DNA of 64,000 bases, from the NCBI RefSeq assembly GCF_963457605.1, contig NZ_OY735139.1, forward strand, positions 1,240,001 to 1,304,000, read 5' to 3'. The position numbers were made by a program, and so were the translations under genes. The notes below the pieces were generated by a model. It was not told the origin of the DNA. It made no database searches and saw nothing but the letters and a program-made list of their open reading frames with translations. Positions 946 through 9,716 of this stretch are shown here, piece by piece (the stretch's first letter is position 1; each line of letters opens with the position of its first letter). Source of the stretch: an uncultured Gellertiella sp. GTDB lineage: Bacteria > Pseudomonadota > Alphaproteobacteria > Rhizobiales > Rhizobiaceae.

Positions 946-2820
946 ATGAACCGCCGCCTTCTTTCCCTCATGCTCGCCACGGCAGCGCTTGCCGCCAGCA
1001 CCGGTTTCGCCTTTGCCGATTACAAGCTGACGATCCTGCATATCAACGACTTCCACGCCCGCTTCGAGCCTATCAACAAGTATGATTCGACCTGCGCCCC
1101 CGAGGATGATGCCAAGGGCTCCTGTTTCGGCGGCATTGCCCGGCTGAAGACGGCCATCGACCAGCGTCGCGCCGAACTGAAGGATGCGCCGGTCCTGCTG
1201 TTGTCGGCAGGCGACGAGTTTCAGGGCTCGCTGTTCTACACCACCTACAAGAGCGCGCCGATTGCCGAATTCATGAATGGCATGGAATTTGACGCCGTGA
1301 CGCTTGGCAATCACGAATTTGACGACGGGCCGGAAGAACTGGCGAAATTCCTGACCGCACTGAAGGCGCCCGTGGTTTCCGGCAACACGCTGGCGAGCCT
1401 GAGCTCGCCGATTGCCAACAAGTTCAAGGGCTACGAGATCAGGGAGACCGGTGGCCAGAAGATCGCCATCATCGGCCTTACCACGCAGGAAACCGACCAG
1501 ACCTCGTCACCCGGCCCCAATGTGCTGTTCGGCGATGAAATCGCCTACCTGAAGGGCGCGGTGAAGGAGATCACCGACCAGGGCGTCAACAAGATCATCG
1601 TGCTGTCGCATATCGGCTACGAGCGCGACAAGGAAATCGCTGCTGCGGTCGACGGCATCGACGTGATCGTCGGCGGCCACAGCCACACCTATCTCTCCAA
1701 TGTCAGCGACAAGGCCGCAGGCCCCTACCCGACTTTGGTGAAAAGCCCGTCCGGTGTCGAGGTGCCCATCGTCACCGCCGGGTCCTATTCGAAATATCTG
1801 GGTGACCTCACCGTCACCTTCGACGATACAGGCAAGGTGAAATCCGCCAGTGGCGAGCCGCATCTGATGGATGCCGGCGTCAAGCCGGACGAGGCCTTTG
1901 CCACGCGGGTTGCCGAACTTGCAAAGCCGCTGGACGAGGTGCGCAAGAAGGTGATTGGCGAGACCCAGACGCCGATCGAGGGCGCGCGCGATGTCTGCCG
2001 GGTGCGCGAATGCGCAATGGGTGACCTGGTGGCCGATGCGATGCTCGACCGGGTCAGGGATCAGGGCATCACCATTGCCATCCAGAATGGCGGCGGCTTG
2101 CGCGCCTCCATCGATCAGGGCCCGGTCACCATGGGCGAAGTGCTGACGGTGCTGCCGTTCCAGAACACGCTTGCAACCTTCCAGCTCAAGGGCTCGGACC
2201 TCAAGGCCGCGCTCGAAAACGGCGTCAGCGATGTCGAGCATGTCGAAGGCCGTTTCCCGCAGGTGGCAGGCCTGAAATATTCCGCCGACCTCACAAAGCC
2301 GAAAGGCAGCCGCATCGTCAGCGTCCTGGTGACTGAAAAAGGCGGTTTCGGTCCGCTTGATCCGGCGAGGACCTATGGCGTTGTCACCAACAATTACATG
2401 CGCGGCGGCGGTGATGGCTACAGCATCTTCGCCAAGGCGGCAATCGACGCCTATGATTACGGCCCGAACCTTGAGGATGTGGTTGCCGCCTATCTCGGTG
2501 CCCACCAGCCCTACAAGCCCTATACCGATGGGCGCGTCACCGTCTCGGGCGTTGTTGCCGCCACCCCCAATGCCGACACCACCGCAGCGGGATCAGCCCT
2601 GGCCAAGCCGGACAAGGCGGTGACGACGCCTGCTGCCCCTGCCGCATCGGTGGCGGGAACCGGAACCACGCATGTGGTGGCAAGGGGCGATACGTTCTGG
2701 GATCTCGCGGTCAAATATCTCGGCCATGGCAGCCAGTGGAAAGTCCTCTCCGCCGCCAATGGCAATCCGGACCCGCAAAAGCTTGCCGTCGGCAAGGAGC
2801 TCACCATTCCCGCAAGGTGA
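946..2820 (+). CDS. Secreted 5'-nucleotidase/UshA-type phosphoesterase with C-terminal LysM
   Basis: The 624-residue protein starts with a Sec signal peptide (about 1-24, cut after FAFA). The metallophosphoesterase domain follows, with metal-binding motifs LHINDFHARFEP, GNHEFDDG, LSHIGYE and VGGHSHTYL. The 5'-nucleotidase C-terminal domain comes next, with AMGDLVADAML and the substrate loop IQNGGGLRASI. This architecture hydrolyses nucleotides or UDP-sugars in the periplasm. The last 50 or so residues (THVVARGDTFWDLAVKYLG to LAVGKELTIPAR) form a LysM domain, so the enzyme may be tethered to peptidoglycan. An alanine/threonine-rich linker joins the two. AAGGAGAT lies about 10 bases before the ATG. 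The precise substrate cannot be told from sequence; UshA, YfkN-like and SoxB-like relatives share the fold. Confidence 0.88.
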   Translation: MNRRLLSLMLATAALAASTGFAFADYKLTILHINDFHARFEPINKYDSTCAPEDDAKGSCFGGIARLKTAIDQRRAELKDAPVLLLSAGDEFQGSLFYTTYKSAPIAEFMNGMEFDAVTLGNHEFDDGPEELAKFLTALKAPVVSGNTLASLSSPIANKFKGYEIRETGGQKIAIIGLTTQETDQTSSPGPNVLFGDEIAYLKGAVKEITDQGVNKIIVLSHIGYERDKEIAAAVDGIDVIVGGHSHTYLSNVSDKAAGPYPTLVKSPSGVEVPIVTAGSYSKYLGDLTVTFDDTGKVKSASGEPHLMDAGVKPDEAFATRVAELAKPLDEVRKKVIGETQTPIEGARDVCRVRECAMGDLVADAMLDRVRDQGITIAIQNGGGLRASIDQGPVTMGEVLTVLPFQNTLATFQLKGSDLKAALENGVSDVEHVEGRFPQVAGLKYSADLTKPKGSRIVSVLVTEKGGFGPLDPARTYGVVTNNYMRGGGDGYSIFAKAAIDAYDYGPNLEDVVAAYLGAHQPYKPYTDGRVTVSGVVAATPNADTTAAGSALAKPDKAVTTPAAPAASVAGTGTTHVVARGDTFWDLAVKYLGHGSQWKVLSAANGNPDPQKLAVGKELTIPAR

Positions 2821-2851
2821 TGCGTGCTTGCAATGATTGTGGCAATTGATC

Positions 2852-2882
2852 ACCGGCCAGGGTTTTCCTGGCCGGTTTTTCG
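2852..2882 (+). terminator. Intrinsic terminator after the phosphoesterase gene
   Basis: ACCGGCCAGG (2852-2861) pairs with CCTGGCCGGT (2867-2876) around a five-base loop, followed by TTTTT. It separates the phosphoesterase gene from hemH. Confidence 0.88.
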
Positions 2883-2960
2883 TGGCGCAACCCTTTTCCT
2901 GCCGCCATCTCCGCCTATATTGGCGGAGCCTGAATCATGATGAACTAAAAAGAGAGACCC

Positions 2961-3995
2961 ATGCCCTTTGACACCGCCCATCTTCCTGCCGACCATCCCC
3001 CGGTGAAATTCGGCAAGGTCGGGGTTCTCCTCGTCAATCTGGGCACGCCCGATGGCACCGATTACACGTCGATGCGCCGCTACCTGAAGGAATTCCTGAT
3101 GGACCGGCGGGTGATCGAATGGTCGCGCTGGCTCTGGTATCCCATCCTTTTCGGCATCGTGCTGCGCACCCGGCCGGGCAAGGTCGGCAAGGCCTATCAG
3201 GCGATCTGGAACAAGGACCTGGACGAGAGCTATCTGCGCACCTATACCCGCGCCCAGGCGGAGAAGATGGCCGAAAGCCTGAAGGATCATTCCCATGTCG
3301 TGGTCGACTGGGGGATGCGCTACGGCCAGCCGTCGATTGCCTCGCGCATCGATGCGCTGAAGGCCGAAGGCTGCGAAAAGATACTGCTGTTTCCGCTCTA
3401 TCCGCAATATGCCGCCGCGACCACGGCGACCGTCAACGACAAGGCGTTCGAATCCCTGTTGCAGATGCGCTGGCAGCCGGCCCTTCGCACCGTCCCGCCC
3501 TATCACGACGATCCCGTCTATATCGAGGCGCTCGCCAATTCGGTGCGCAAGCATCTCGAAACGCTCGACTGGGAGCCGGAAGTATTGCTCACCTCCTTCC
3601 ACGGCATCCCGATGTCCTATTTCAAGAAGGGCGACCCCTATCATTGCCAGTGCCTCAAGACGGCCCGGCTGCTGCGCGAAAAGCTCGGCTGGCCGAAGGA
3701 AAAGCTGATGGTGACCTTCCAGTCCCGCTTCGGGCCGGAGGAATGGCTGCAGCCCTATACGGACAAGACGGTGGAAAAACTTGCAAAAGACGGGGTGAAG
3801 CGGATCGCGGTGATGAACCCGGGTTTCGTTTCGGACTGCCTGGAAACGCTCGAGGAAATCGCCGGGGAAGCGGGCGAGATCTTCCATCACGCAGGCGGCG
3901 AGAAATTCACCCATATCCCCTGTCTCAACGATTCCACCGATGGCATGTGGGTTCTCGACCATGTGGTGAGGCGCGAGCTTTCCGGCTGGATCTGA
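2961..3995 (+). CDS. hemH: Ferrochelatase
   Basis: HemH inserts ferrous iron into protoporphyrin IX, the last step of haem synthesis. At 344 residues it has the usual bacterial length. Family landmarks are GVLLVNLGTPDG near the N-terminus, TSFHGIP with the metal-binding histidine at about residue 214, FQSRFGPEEWLQPYT, and NPGFVSDCLETLEEI with the second metal-site glutamate near the C-terminus. It appears to be a single-gene unit: a terminator lies upstream and the next gene starts about 110 bases later. AGAGAG upstream of the ATG is a modest ribosome site. Confidence 0.96.
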   Translation: MPFDTAHLPADHPPVKFGKVGVLLVNLGTPDGTDYTSMRRYLKEFLMDRRVIEWSRWLWYPILFGIVLRTRPGKVGKAYQAIWNKDLDESYLRTYTRAQAEKMAESLKDHSHVVVDWGMRYGQPSIASRIDALKAEGCEKILLFPLYPQYAAATTATVNDKAFESLLQMRWQPALRTVPPYHDDPVYIEALANSVRKHLETLDWEPEVLLTSFHGIPMSYFKKGDPYHCQCLKTARLLREKLGWPKEKLMVTFQSRFGPEEWLQPYTDKTVEKLAKDGVKRIAVMNPGFVSDCLETLEEIAGEAGEIFHHAGGEKFTHIPCLNDSTDGMWVLDHVVRRELSGWI

Positions 3996-5154: not shown

Positions 5155-5619
5155 ATGCTCGACGCCTTCCTGACTGAAACCGGCCCCTGGGCCTGGTGGA
5201 TCCTCGGCATCGCGCTGCTCGGGGCCGAATTGCTGATGCCGGGCGTGTTTCTGGTCTGGATCGGCCTTGCCGCCATTGCCGTCGGTGCGCTGTCGCTGGC
5301 GCTGTGGGGCATGACCGTCTGGCACTGGGAAGTGCAGATGCTGGTGTTTGCAGTCCTGTCGGTGGCGTTCGTGCTGATCGGCCGCCGTTTCTATGGCCGG
5401 CTGGACCATGCCACCGACCAGCCGCTCCTCAACCAGCGCGGTGCCTCCCTGATCGGTCGCACCGCCACACTCGGCGAACCCGTCGTCGATGGCCGCGGAC
5501 GGCTCAGGATCGACGACACCTACTGGCCGGTGATGGGCCCGGACCTGCCTGCGGGCACCCGGGTGATGATTTCGGGGATAAATAACCATATGCTGGCTAT
5601 TGAAGAATACAAATCTTAA
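5155..5619 (+). CDS. nfeD: NfeD family membrane protein
   Basis: The 154-residue short-type NfeD has two or three hydrophobic helices in its first 80 residues (WWILGIALLGAELLMPG, then MLVFAVLSVAFVLIG). A C-terminal OB-fold domain follows (LIGRTATLGEPVVDGRGRLRI). NfeD proteins are obligate partners of SPFH proteins, and this one starts directly after the SPFH gene, so the two are almost certainly co-transcribed. The reading frame ends naturally. The stop lies only six bases from the end of the restriction-endonuclease remnant on the other strand, which marks the left border of the restriction-modification island. Confidence 0.88.
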   Translation: MLDAFLTETGPWAWWILGIALLGAELLMPGVFLVWIGLAAIAVGALSLALWGMTVWHWEVQMLVFAVLSVAFVLIGRRFYGRLDHATDQPLLNQRGASLIGRTATLGEPVVDGRGRLRIDDTYWPVMGPDLPAGTRVMISGINNHMLAIEEYKS

Positions 5620-5625
5620 ATGACG

Positions 5626-5757
5626 TCACGATTTTGCAATGACGACCCCATTTGGGTATACTCTATCCGTTTCCCTGTATAGAATAATATAACCTGACAA
5701 GCGTGTAGCTTGCCATCCCGGCTGGAGGTGCATAACGATATGCTGGGCGTTCTCTGA
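5626..5757 (-). pseudogene. Severed C-terminal tail of the Eco29kI-like endonuclease
   Basis: On the minus strand, from the IS30 left end to a TGA at 5628-5626, there is a 43-residue open stretch. It includes HLQPGWQATRLSGYIILYRE and VYPNGVVIAKS. From memory of the family (not checked), GWQAT.L.GY.ILY.E..YP.G is how Eco29kI-type endonucleases end. The stretch has no start codon of its own and abuts the insertion element. I therefore read it as the displaced tail of the endonuclease that begins at 7458 on the other side of the element. With any simple target duplication the two halves join one base out of frame (see findings). Confidence 0.7.
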
Positions 5758-5774
5758 TTTGAAGTGCAACAGGC
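5758..5774 (+). repeat. IS30 left inverted repeat
   Basis: TTTGAAGTGCAACAGGC; its inner 14 bases (GAAGTGCAACAGGC) are the exact inverse of the right end. Confidence 0.82.
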
Positions 5775-5795
5775 ATCCGTTTAAAGGATGCCGTT

Positions 5796-6806
5796 ATGGG
5801 TCAGCATTATCAGCATTTTAGCGCTTTTGAGCGCAACTTTCTCCAGAGCCGTTTGAATATGGGCAACACGCAGGCGTGGATCGCTCTGGCTCTTGGCCGG
5901 TCGCGATCGACTGTGTCTCGGGAGGTTCGCCGCAACGCGCCGCCAGCGTCGCCTTCTCACTTATGCTATGACGCGGGCATTGCTTCCAGAGCCTCTTTGT
6001 CGCGCCGCCGTCGCGGACTGGTCAGGCTTGCGGAAGGGACGGCCTTGCGGGAGACTGTTTTCAGGCAGATACGTCTGGGCTGGTCCCCGCAGCAGATTTC
6101 CGGCAGGTTAAAGCACATGGACGAGCCCGAGACAGTGGCGCACGAGACGATTTACCGGGCGATCTACATCCTGCCGAAAGGCGAATTGCGCAAGCAACTC
6201 ATAGGCTTGCTTCGACAGGGGCATAAATTGCGCCGCCCCCGCGCTCAAGGCAAGGACCGGCGCGGCAGCCTGCCTGGCATGGTGTCGGTGCATGCGCGTC
6301 CGGCGTCCGTGCTGACCCGTGAACTGCCCGGCGACTGGGAGGGCGACCTGATCAAGGGCACCGGAAATGCCAGTTGCATCGGCACGCTGGCCGAACGCAA
6401 AACCCGCTATGTCATTCTGACGAAGATGAAGGATGCCAGCGCGGATGCAGCACTTGCCGGGTTCTCGCGCGGCCTGTCGCGTGTCCCTCAAGCGATGCGC
6501 ACCAGCATGACCTACGACCAGGGAAAAGAAATGGCTCAGCACACCGAGCTGGCTAAGCGGCTGAATATAAAAGTGTATTTCTGCGATCCGCATAGCCCGT
6601 GGCAGCGACCCACCAACGAAAATACCAATGGCCTGATCCGCCAGTATCTGCCAAAAGGCATCGATCTCAGCATCTACTCCCAGAAGGACCTCGACAAAAT
6701 CGCCGACAGCCTCAACAATCGACCAAGACAAACACTCGGATTCAGAACACCCCTCGAAGCCTATCAAACCGAAATCTCAAACCAGCCTGTTGCACTTCAG
6801 AAATGA
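5796..6806 (+). CDS. IS30-family transposase
   Basis: This 336-residue DDE transposase carries out cut-and-paste or copy-type movement of the element. The N-terminal helix-turn-helix region reads FERNFLQSRLNMGNTQAWIALALGRSRSTVSREVRRN, given here only to mark residues 9-46. The acidic triad lies in GDWEGDLIKG, SMTYDQGKEM and SPWQRPTNENTNGLIRQYLP, the typical IS30 spacing. AAAGGA precedes the ATG. The final coding triplet AAA is followed by TGA at 6804-6806, which is also the putative duplicated target. The stop codon thus appears to come from flanking host DNA. Confidence 0.95.
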   Translation: MGQHYQHFSAFERNFLQSRLNMGNTQAWIALALGRSRSTVSREVRRNAPPASPSHLCYDAGIASRASLSRRRRGLVRLAEGTALRETVFRQIRLGWSPQQISGRLKHMDEPETVAHETIYRAIYILPKGELRKQLIGLLRQGHKLRRPRAQGKDRRGSLPGMVSVHARPASVLTRELPGDWEGDLIKGTGNASCIGTLAERKTRYVILTKMKDASADAALAGFSRGLSRVPQAMRTSMTYDQGKEMAQHTELAKRLNIKVYFCDPHSPWQRPTNENTNGLIRQYLPKGIDLSIYSQKDLDKIADSLNNRPRQTLGFRTPLEAYQTEISNQPVALQK

Positions 6807-7458
6807 GACCGCCCTGCAAAATGGTACGGGGCGTAGCGGGCCCTTCGAGAGCTGAGATTTTCTGTGAATTAAGTTCGGCGTCGGGTTGCCTGCTTCGACC
6901 CGGCAACATTTGAAATCGCAAGGTATAGGGTAACGCGTCCTTCAGGCGGGCCAAAACAGCGGCAGCACTTTCCGGTACTGGTATGGAAAATGGAATTTGC
7001 CTGTCTATGTCGATTGGAAACAAAGCATCGAAATTGTTTGGTTCAATCCGCGTGGTGTCTCTCTCCCGACCCGGATCATTTGATCCAAAGCCGCTCCCAT
7101 TCCATGCTATAGATCTCACGCCCCCGTAATACGCAATCAAATCTGATTCGAGGTCAATTGCCGTGAAGACAAATATCCTCATAGCTTTAAAAGTTAATCT
7201 ATTTGAATCCAGACCCTGGCGATACATCGTCTTTCGCAAATGCCTGGATAAACGCCTGTGCAGACCAGATTCTGCATCAGTTTTTCCTATGTATACCAAA
7301 TTTCCATCCAGAAATAATTGATATATCCCTTGGGTTTCAGGAACATTTGATAAACTGGACACACTTAAAGGGGCAGCTTCCACGCGTTCAATTGCATCAA
7401 TCAGTTTTTCCAGAAGTGCTGTTGGCAAATCAAATTCAAATTCAACATAGCCAGTCAT
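6742..7458 (-). pseudogene. Eco29kI-like GIY-YIG type II restriction endonuclease, C-terminus replaced by IS30
   Basis: The frame codes for 238 residues, of which about 218 are native; the last 20 or so are read from the IS30 right end. GIY-YIG landmarks are present: GIYQLFL (Tyr46), LVYIGKT (Tyr56), GLHRRLSRHLRK (Arg69/Arg72, His73), a possible Glu104, and AWNGSGFGSNDPGRERD (Asn120), the last being typical of Eco29kI relatives. That family cuts CCGCGG, so CCGCGG is the likely but unproven site here. The ATG overlaps the methyltransferase stop as TAATG, implying coupled translation. The nuclease core is intact, but the C-terminal segment that follows it in the family now lies beyond the element at 5626-5757. 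Activity is therefore doubtful, though not excluded. Confidence 0.8.
6785..6803 (-). repeat. IS30 right inverted repeat
   Basis: Read on the minus strand this is TTTCTGAAGTGCAACAGGC. It matches the left end apart from a CT insertion after the first three bases. It lies inside the 3' end of the transposase gene. Confidence 0.82.
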
Positions 7459-8636
7459 TATTGTTTTCCCGAGTCAGCAAAACGTAGATGTCTTTTCACG
7501 CTACGGGCGATAATCCAGGCCAATTCCACAGGAACTGCATTCCCCAATTGACGCATTGCTTCCGACCAGGATCCATTAAAACCGTATGAGTCCGGAAATG
7601 TTTGCAAACGGGCACTTTCCCTGATTGTAAAATACCGGACGCTGCCATCGGAACGTAAAAGCATGTTTTCACCACCCGGGACCCCATGAACACCCGCCTT
7701 CAACGTCTTTGCGGGTTCATCAAGGGGACTGCCTGTATGCCCTGCATAAGACCGGGCACCAGGTTGGAACTTATGGCCATTTATCGTTGAGGTTTCACGG
7801 GCACAGAACTCGGGATCGGGCAAGTCGTGGATTGCATCCCGGGTTGTTCGCCACGCCAACGACAATGGCCTTTCATTCAGTTTTTTCCCGCGTTCACTGT
7901 TCCTCTCCGAAATCACTTGGTGGTTTCGTGGAAGGCGGTGCCGGTCCCGATAGTCACCCTTCAATTGATTCCACAAGAGTGCATCCATAGAATGGGTCTC
8001 GGCTGGAAAAGACCATTCAATTTCAAGGTCAGATCTGAACCCGACCACAACCACCCGTTCTCGCCGTTGTGGCACTCCGTAATTTGCAGCATTGATCACT
8101 CGAAATACGACTCTGTATTCAAGCCCGCCAGAATGGCGACGACCCGTATGGTGTTGCTCAAGGCGCCCCAGATGACTTTCCCACCCTTCCCCCACGCGGG
8201 CAACGAGCTCGGGATATTGCAACTGCAATAAGATATGGGAAAAATAGGTTGCGAAGGTAGCGCGCGCCAAACCTTTGACATTTTCGAATATGAAAGCTTG
8301 CGGCTTGGCGTCGCGAATGGCACGTATCGCCTGCGGCCACATGTCTCTTTCATCAGCGTGTGCCTGATGTTTGCCGCCGACGGAGAAAGGCTGACATGGT
8401 GGGCCGCCCGTCACCAGATTTACTCGGCCCTGATACATTTTGAAGTCTATGTTTCGCACGTCGCTTTCAATTGGCTCCGGCCAATCTGCTATCACGCCAA
8501 ATTCGTTTTTCCTGTTCTGCCGAATGGTGTCACAACACCAACGGTCCCACTCAATTACAGCTTCTGTTTTGAATCCGGCTCTGCTGACGCCCATTCCAAG
8601 GCCACCAGCACCTGCAAAAAGCTCCAGTGTCTTCAT
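7458..8636 (-). CDS. DNA (cytosine-5-)methyltransferase of the restriction-modification system
   Basis: The 392-residue C5-methyltransferase protects host DNA from the partner endonuclease. Motif I is LELFAGAGGLG at the N-terminus. Motif IV is GGPPCQPFS, with the catalytic cysteine at about residue 81. Motif VI is FENVKGL, motif VIII QRRERVVVVG, and motif X LGNAVPVELAW at the C-terminus. The variable region between VIII and IX holds the target recognition domain. The first possible codon is a TTG at 8639; I prefer the ATG at 8636, with AGAGG upstream. The gene is visibly AT-richer than its chromosomal neighbours, which suggests transfer with the endonuclease. With the endonuclease disrupted, it may now act as a solitary methyltransferase. 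Confidence 0.93.
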   Translation of the reverse strand: MKTLELFAGAGGLGMGVSRAGFKTEAVIEWDRWCCDTIRQNRKNEFGVIADWPEPIESDVRNIDFKMYQGRVNLVTGGPPCQPFSVGGKHQAHADERDMWPQAIRAIRDAKPQAFIFENVKGLARATFATYFSHILLQLQYPELVARVGEGWESHLGRLEQHHTGRRHSGGLEYRVVFRVINAANYGVPQRRERVVVVGFRSDLEIEWSFPAETHSMDALLWNQLKGDYRDRHRLPRNHQVISERNSERGKKLNERPLSLAWRTTRDAIHDLPDPEFCARETSTINGHKFQPGARSYAGHTGSPLDEPAKTLKAGVHGVPGGENMLLRSDGSVRYFTIRESARLQTFPDSYGFNGSWSEAMRQLGNAVPVELAWIIARSVKRHLRFADSGKQ

Positions 8637-8720
8637 CAATCACCATCCTCTCAAAAAAGCGATCCAAACCGGTGTTGAAGAAATCAATTGCAACTTAGGT
8701 GTATAGCCTTGCCTGAACCC

Positions 8721-9716
8721 TCACGCCACGCCGATCCGCAACAGATCGTGGAAATGTACCACGCCGACCGGATGGCTGGTGTCGTCGATGACGAAGAGGG
8801 CGGAAATATTGTGCTGGTTGAGGATCGCCATGGCGGCGGTGGCCAGCGACTCCGCCTTCACCGTTTTCGGCGCGCGGGTCATGATGTCGTCGACCACGAG
8901 GCCACCGAGATTGCGGCCAATGCTGCGGGCAATATCGCCATCGGTGATGATGCCGGAAAGCCGCCCTTCCCCGTCCAGAATGCCGACGCAGCCGAAGCGC
9001 TTCTGCGACAGGATGGTGACCGCCTGCTGCAGGCCTGTTCCTTGCGCCACCAGCGGCAGCACGTCGCCGCGATGCATGATGTCGCCGACATGGGCAAGGC
9101 TCGCCCCGAGCTTGCCGCCGGGATGGAAGGTGCGGAAATCGAGCGCGGTAAAGCCGCGGCTTTCCAGCAGCGCCACCGCCAGCGCATCGCCGAGCGACAA
9201 CTGCATCAGCGTTGAGGTGGTGGGCGCAAGCCCGTGCGGGCAGGCTTCCTGTTCGCGGGGCAGCGACAGCACGATATCGGCGGCCTTGGCGAGCGTCGAG
9301 GTCTCGCCGGACGTGATCGCGATCAGCGGGATCTGGAAGCGGCGGGAATAGGCGATGATCCCCTGCAATTCGGTGCTTTCGCCGCTCCAGGACATCGCAA
9401 TGATCACGTCATCGCGGGCAATCATCCCGAGGTCACCGTGATTGGCTTCCACCGGATGAACGAAAAACGCCGGCGTGCCGGTCGAGGCAAAGGTGGCGGC
9501 CAGTTTCGAACCGATATGGCCACTCTTGCCGACCCCCGTCACGATCACCCGGCCGGTAATCCGGAATATGGCATCAACGGCGTCGGAAAACGGCTGCGAC
9601 AGCGGACCTGCCAGCGCCCGTTCCAGCGAGGCAAGGCCGTTTCGCTCGGTTTCAATGGTGCGGAGCGCCGAAGCGACGGCCTCTGCGGCTTTTGGAATGC
9701 TGTCCGGTCGGGTCAT
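8721..9716 (-). CDS. kpsF: KpsF/GutQ family sugar isomerase (arabinose-5-phosphate isomerase)
   Basis: The 331-residue protein has an N-terminal SIS domain (about 40-180; VTGVGKSGHIGSKLAATFASTG and SWSGEST bind the sugar phosphate). Two CBS domains follow (about 205-325; GDVLPLV and DDIMTRAPKTVKAESLA). Family members interconvert ribulose-5-phosphate and arabinose-5-phosphate, the entry to Kdo for lipopolysaccharide or capsule. Length and architecture are standard. It reads towards the restriction-modification island, which begins 80 bases downstream, and no strong terminator lies between, so read-through into the methyltransferase is possible. Confidence 0.92.
   Translation of the reverse strand: MTRPDSIPKAAEAVASALRTIETERNGLASLERALAGPLSQPFSDAVDAIFRITGRVIVTGVGKSGHIGSKLAATFASTGTPAFFVHPVEANHGDLGMIARDDVIIAMSWSGESTELQGIIAYSRRFQIPLIAITSGETSTLAKAADIVLSLPREQEACPHGLAPTTSTLMQLSLGDALAVALLESRGFTALDFRTFHPGGKLGASLAHVGDIMHRGDVLPLVAQGTGLQQAVTILSQKRFGCVGILDGEGRLSGIITDGDIARSIGRNLGGLVVDDIMTRAPKTVKAESLATAAMAILNQHNISALFVIDDTSHPVGVVHFHDLLRIGVA

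Follow-up and report, generated by a model that had tools for sequence, protein, structure and literature searches.

The window is the whole 64,000-nucleotide stretch of DNA that we analysed, from an uncultured Gellertiella sp. On its minus strand, a restriction-modification (RM) module extends from 8639 to 5626. The methyltransferase gene is read first, followed by the interrupted gene for a GIY-YIG endonuclease, and the last base of the former is the first base of the latter (overlap at 7458). The module is flanked by an NfeD-like gene, in convergent orientation, and a gene for a KpsF/KdsD-type isomerase. A preliminary description, made from the sequence alone, had recognized a restriction endonuclease gene split by IS30, an Eco29kI-like enzyme, and a methyltransferase kept intact. 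All three points stand. All features are listed in Table 1.

Table 1. Coordinates of the module, the inserted element and the flanking genes within the window
Feature	Position	Strand	Details
NfeD-like gene	5155..5619	+	left neighbour, convergent with module
Detached C-terminal tail of endonuclease	5626..5742	-	38 residues (5629-5742) and stop (5626-5628)
Target duplication CTG, left copy	5743..5745	.	3 bp
IS30-family insertion sequence	5746..6813	+	1,068 bp; ends GGCGTTCTC / GAGACCGCC; one of 7 full genome copies
IS30 transposase	5796..6806	+	336 aa, open frame; NCBIfam NF033563 E=1e-90; Pfam HTH_38 and rve
Element DNA as new end of endonuclease ORF	6742..6813	-	23 residues and stop
Target duplication CTG, right copy	6814..6816	.	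3 bp; doubles as last native endonuclease codon kept
GIY-YIG restriction endonuclease gene, native part	6814..7458	-	residues 1-215; six R.Eco29kI active-site positions present
DNA cytosine-5 methyltransferase, intact	7458..8639	-	Pfam PF00145 E=1.4e-59; NCBIfam TIGR00675; TTG start 8639, ATG at 8636
KpsF/KdsD-type sugar-phosphate isomerase	8721..9716	-	right neighbour of module

Boundaries of the IS30-family element

The transposase belongs to the IS30 family (NF033563, 304.1 bits; cut-off 80) and the termini of the element are imperfect inverted repeats, identical at 24 of 29 positions. Besides seven full copies, the genome contains two that are partial and a 23-bp piece. We set the ends of the element by comparing the flanks of the full copies, which are at different sites. 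Previously, an inner 15-bp sequence, TGAAGTGCAACAGGC, had been taken for the element end, and TGA for the target duplication. Neither assignment survives the comparison. The seven full copies have 14 bp more in common, on each side, than the inner sequence, and the duplication flanking the window copy is CTG. Exact 3-bp direct repeats flank six of the seven (CTG for the window copy; CTA, CAC, CGG, CGG, and CAG for the others).

The sole full copy with no such duplication is L007 (G000:C2:1559207-1560326). Here, an inverted 23-bp piece of the element's left end is found 14 bp past the right end. This arrangement recalls the IR-targeting that is described for IS30 in the excerpted text of PMC9333248.

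Some sequence variation between copies was apparent. The window copy differs, at five positions, from four copies that are mutually identical. Conversely, the window copy is identical, over 789 bp, to a partial copy lying some 117 kb from it (G000:C2:1128165-1128953). Hence, at least two sequence variants of the element are present together in this genome. We did not find the element in any of the four other genomes from this genus, and a plasmid megablast with the IS sequence gave no match. We also considered that flank bases at the right end might be part of another mobile element. This was rejected because the junction pattern is single in the genome; a 21-base pattern spanning the right junction (9 element and 12 flank bases) occurs once, with up to three mismatches allowed.

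The interrupted endonuclease gene and its detached tail

The endonuclease ORF, starting at 7458 on the minus strand, enters the element and terminates inside. In the endonuclease frame, 645 native bases, or 215 codons, are kept. These are followed by 23 element-encoded residues (GGLISEVQQAGLRFRFDRLRGVF), where the preliminary description counted about 20. Past the element, the minus strand reads HIVMHLQPGWQATRLSGYIILYRETDRVYPNGVVIAKS and then reaches a stop codon. After removal of one CTG copy, the flanks join as ATPRTILQ-HIVMHLQP in a single frame. Hence, with the true element ends, both halves of the gene share one frame, with the spacing found in the closest relatives, and a reported one-base frame discrepancy vanishes. 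The discrepancy arose because the inner TGAAGTGCAACAGGC was taken as the end, so that 14 bp of element, per side, was counted as gene. The readable tail had been placed at 5757-5626 for the same stretch. Of this, 5626-5742 is indeed tail, while 5746-5757 is element DNA and 5743-5745 is the CTG duplication. Judged from the DNA sequence, the split is an ordinary IS30-family insertion that truncates the endonuclease and leaves the methyltransferase alone. A search of the genome revealed no second copy of this endonuclease; the remaining matches were element ends.

The suggestion that the detached stretch is the family C-terminus is borne out by comparison with relatives. In the Rhizobium metallidurans protein, residues 216-253 are matched by the tail (5742-5629), with 25 of 38 identical. 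The native part is identical to the same protein at 138 of 215 positions, in an alignment ending at residue 215, directly before the tail match. We tested the tail against 17 relatives (5 database records, 3 genomes, and 9 from IMG/VR). Note that these include near copies; over the part read, L084 is the same as L085, and L087 to L089 are nearly identical. For 16 of the 17, none of 1,000 shuffles of the tail scored as high as the tail itself. The exception is the distant relative L029, for which 80 of 1,000 shuffles reached the tail score. Similarly, when a profile built from five intact relatives was run over 385 genomes, it recovered the detached tail in the present one (E = 3.7e-8), in a match spanning window positions 5629-5754 that includes the 3-bp repeat and 9 element bases. 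The relatives were also checked for natural ends near residue 218, or lack of the GWQAT/ILY-type tail, either of which would make the detached stretch unrelated. Their lengths, as read, are 249 to 275 residues (n=17), and the tail is recognized in the 16 already mentioned. Finally, the tail is stop-free and has diverged no more than the rest of the endonuclease. This suggests that the insertion is recent.

The C-terminal domain in a structure model

From 10 sequences, we obtained a model of intact R. metallidurans endonuclease with a mean pLDDT of 82.9. An earlier model, from 3 sequences, had a mean pLDDT of 37.2 and was not used. The insertion point (residue 215) is inside a helix of the modelled relative, comprising residues 210-220. 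The part lost consists of the remainder of this helix and strands 225-229, 233-238, and 248-252. From residue 211 on, block mean pLDDT values are 76 to 96. In terms of this model, losing the tail would most likely unfold the C-terminal domain. Since the 38 lost residues are the end of that domain, the endonuclease most likely does not cut. Note that the active-site positions, Y46, Y56, R69, H73, E104, and N120, are all within the kept part. Because all six remain, inactivity is something that we infer.

When the C-terminal domains of five relatives were scanned on their own against Pfam, no match had an E below 0.047. Using Foldseek, the model of the intact relative (L020; m372b4dcfe2e3) matched 2iah_A, 2o5p_B, and 6ovk_B (E 0.016-0.34), over 85-92 columns with rmsd of 2.2-3.6 and 14-17% identity. 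These are structures of signalling domains from TonB receptors and from their regulator, and we take the domains to be of the STN type. The part of L020 matched would be the C-terminal half, which provides no more than a lead. No Pfam STN match was found in the relatives or in the isolated C-terminal domains.

Methyltransferase and origin of the module

The methyltransferase is full length, and its alignment with 8 relatives extends from one end to the other (55-70% identity to seven and 49% to the eighth). Profile scores are 202.6 bits for PF00145, against a cut-off of 22, and 162.1 for TIGR00675, against 100.65. Elsewhere in the genome, the closest methyltransferase has 42% identity, confined to part of its length. 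A further cytosine methyltransferase, with an adjoining vsr gene, is encoded by the plasmid contig (G000:C1:132160-133420). Among the matches listed, 20 kb of this contig is matched by plasmids of Shinella, Rhizobium, and others over no more than 14% of its length; the window's ferrochelatase has up to 83% identity to copies on Ensifer plasmids.

In four of four same-genus genomes, the nfeD-like and kpsF genes are adjacent, the module is absent, and the stop codons are 6 to 211 bp apart. The equivalent stop-to-stop distance here is 3,101 bp. The G+C content of the module genes is 0.46-0.52, compared with 0.64 for both neighbours. These observations are consistent with the module having come, by horizontal transfer, into the nfeD-like/kpsF gap. 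Its absence from the four genomes, each representing one species, may also be due to loss of the module there.

Among 61 genomes of the order, a single-protein search detected the endonuclease only in this one. In a profile search, 26 of 385 genomes of the class matched at E<=0.001. Besides this genome, only three (G285, G124, and G383) match over most of the endonuclease profile. The remaining matches involve only parts of approximately residues 15-110, mostly in frames of at least 580 residues, and these long frames probably encode UvrC-like proteins. The R. leguminosarum endonuclease matched nothing in phage records. No vsr gene is present upstream of the window methyltransferase, and a search for remnants at the start of that gene (8501-8900) gave weak, short matches only (best E 0.06). 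Two vsr genes are found elsewhere in this genome.

Probable loss of endonuclease function by simple insertion

We are highly confident in the following account. A type II RM module, consisting of the methyltransferase and an Eco29kI-like GIY-YIG endonuclease, would have arrived horizontally between the nfeD-like gene and kpsF. Later, a single clean insertion of the IS30-family element occurred after endonuclease codon 215, with 3 bp duplicated. The endonuclease thereby gained 23 element-encoded residues and lost 38 native ones. The element with its ends, the duplication, the frame, the tail, and the intact methyltransferase are all shown by the sequence. From the model, loss of cutting is likely. 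The untouched methyltransferase probably still protects the same sites, and so the cell would tolerate the loss.

Other scenarios were weighed against this one. The preliminary description proposed that the endonuclease gene was already frameshifted, or that the insertion was not a simple duplication. This holds only if the inner TGAAGTGCAACAGGC is the element end. Given the 14 additional bases per side in all seven full copies, the exact duplications at six, and the continuous frame with native spacing, we rejected both versions and regard them as extremely improbable. We also think it unlikely that the module still restricts through a truncated endonuclease that, ending in 23 element-encoded residues, retains DNA binding or cleavage, possibly with altered properties. 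Retention of all six active-site positions would permit this. Furthermore, three Eco29kI-family proteins have different ends, without this tail, and the Eco29kI-family protein of an enterobacterial plasmid is only 214 residues long. However, 16 of 17 relatives have the tail, and the insertion point cuts the confidently modelled domain that holds it. Since the C-terminus of the Eco29kI proteins differs, their length is no guide. That a chimeric endonuclease is still made, and acts on DNA in an altered way, having been remodelled by the IS rather than killed, is in our view very unlikely.

A last scenario is that the insertion is a reversible off-switch, with exit of the element restoring restriction. 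An in-frame insertion with a 3-bp duplication is compatible with this, since exact loss would give a continuous frame. What is stated about IS30 in the excerpted text of PMC9333248 speaks against it. Briefly, transposition gives no precise excision regenerating a non-IR target, and the IS-free state is reached only via very rare illegitimate recombination. Hence, we give the idea of a switch almost no credence. On IS-inactivated restriction genes, nothing relevant was found in the excerpted text of PMC4687349.

Returning to the simple insertion, the frame puzzle is explained as a misplaced element boundary, and an unusual transposition event is not needed. The locus provides a clear case of an RM module that loses the endonuclease while the protecting methyltransferase stays. 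On general grounds, losing the endonuclease before the methyltransferase is the order in which the host stays safe from its own enzyme. IS insertion is an ordinary route for RM defence systems to lose the cutting half.

Comparison with known systems

The element resembles other IS30-family insertion sequences in having an IS30-type transposase, imperfect inverted ends, and a short target duplication. The difference is that duplication at the window element is 3 bp.

According to the excerpted text of PMC1952068, R.Eco29kI is a GIY-YIG enzyme that recognizes CCGCGG, with active-site residues Y49, Y76, R104, H108, E142, and N154. In a profile alignment, these equate to the six positions of the window protein given above, which are invariant in an alignment that includes it. 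Profile comparison with Eco29kI-family proteins gave 96.6% probability, covering only residues 42-134. With Foldseek, 11 of 11 matches to the L020 model at E<=0.001 are R.Eco29kI chains (best E=1.2e-6). The TM values, 0.39-0.43 by query length, indicate a partial fold match and refer to the L020 model rather than to the window protein. Eight of eight relatives match Pfam RE_Eco29kI (PF09517) at E up to 5, with a best value of 3.4e-7. The R. metallidurans relative scores 20.9 bits, under the cut-off of 30.8, and the window endonuclease has no Pfam match at E<=0.001. Similarly, a PDB sequence search with the window endonuclease gave no hit at E<=1. With the R. metallidurans relative below the RE_Eco29kI cut-off, we call the enzyme Eco29kI-like and do not file it as a member.

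CCGCGG is a plausible site for the module. This genome contains 1,017 copies of CCGCGG, the lowest count, compared with 1,712 to 3,547 in four relatives. Note that a reversed control is likewise lowest here; the ratio of CCGCGG to control is 0.80, against 0.71-0.83 in the four relatives. Hence, there is no excess avoidance of CCGCGG relative to these genomes, and the counts do not argue that an active CCGCGG system has resided here for long.

In common with the Eco29kI system, the module has a GIY-YIG core in which all six active-site positions recur, and a related cytosine-5 methyltransferase partner. The methyltransferase of the enterobacterial plasmid is 49% identical to that of the window; the endonuclease gene is first there and second here. 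Two other methyltransferases, with partners annotated as Eco29kI family, have 55-58% identity to the window protein. A related methyltransferase on Sphingomonas paucimobilis pKira_2 (L056) matches in 3 pieces, mostly without a listed gene, with a vsr gene on one side and a 134-residue Eco29kI-family endonuclease on the other. This is a second module of the kind, which may be in decay.

The operons of R. metallidurans, R. leguminosarum pR132502, Pseudomonas putida, Methylocaldum szegediense, and Ruegeria plasmids have the same methyltransferase-endonuclease order, with overlapping genes. Their endonucleases are 45-64% identical to the window protein over its native part. In all five, vsr is upstream (annotated in three, and read from ORFs and similarity in two), whereas the window module has no vsr there and carries the IS. 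Compared with Eco29kI-family proteins, the subfamily represented in the window is longer and the window copy is interrupted. Our analysis draws attention to this Eco29kI-like subfamily with a long C-terminal domain.
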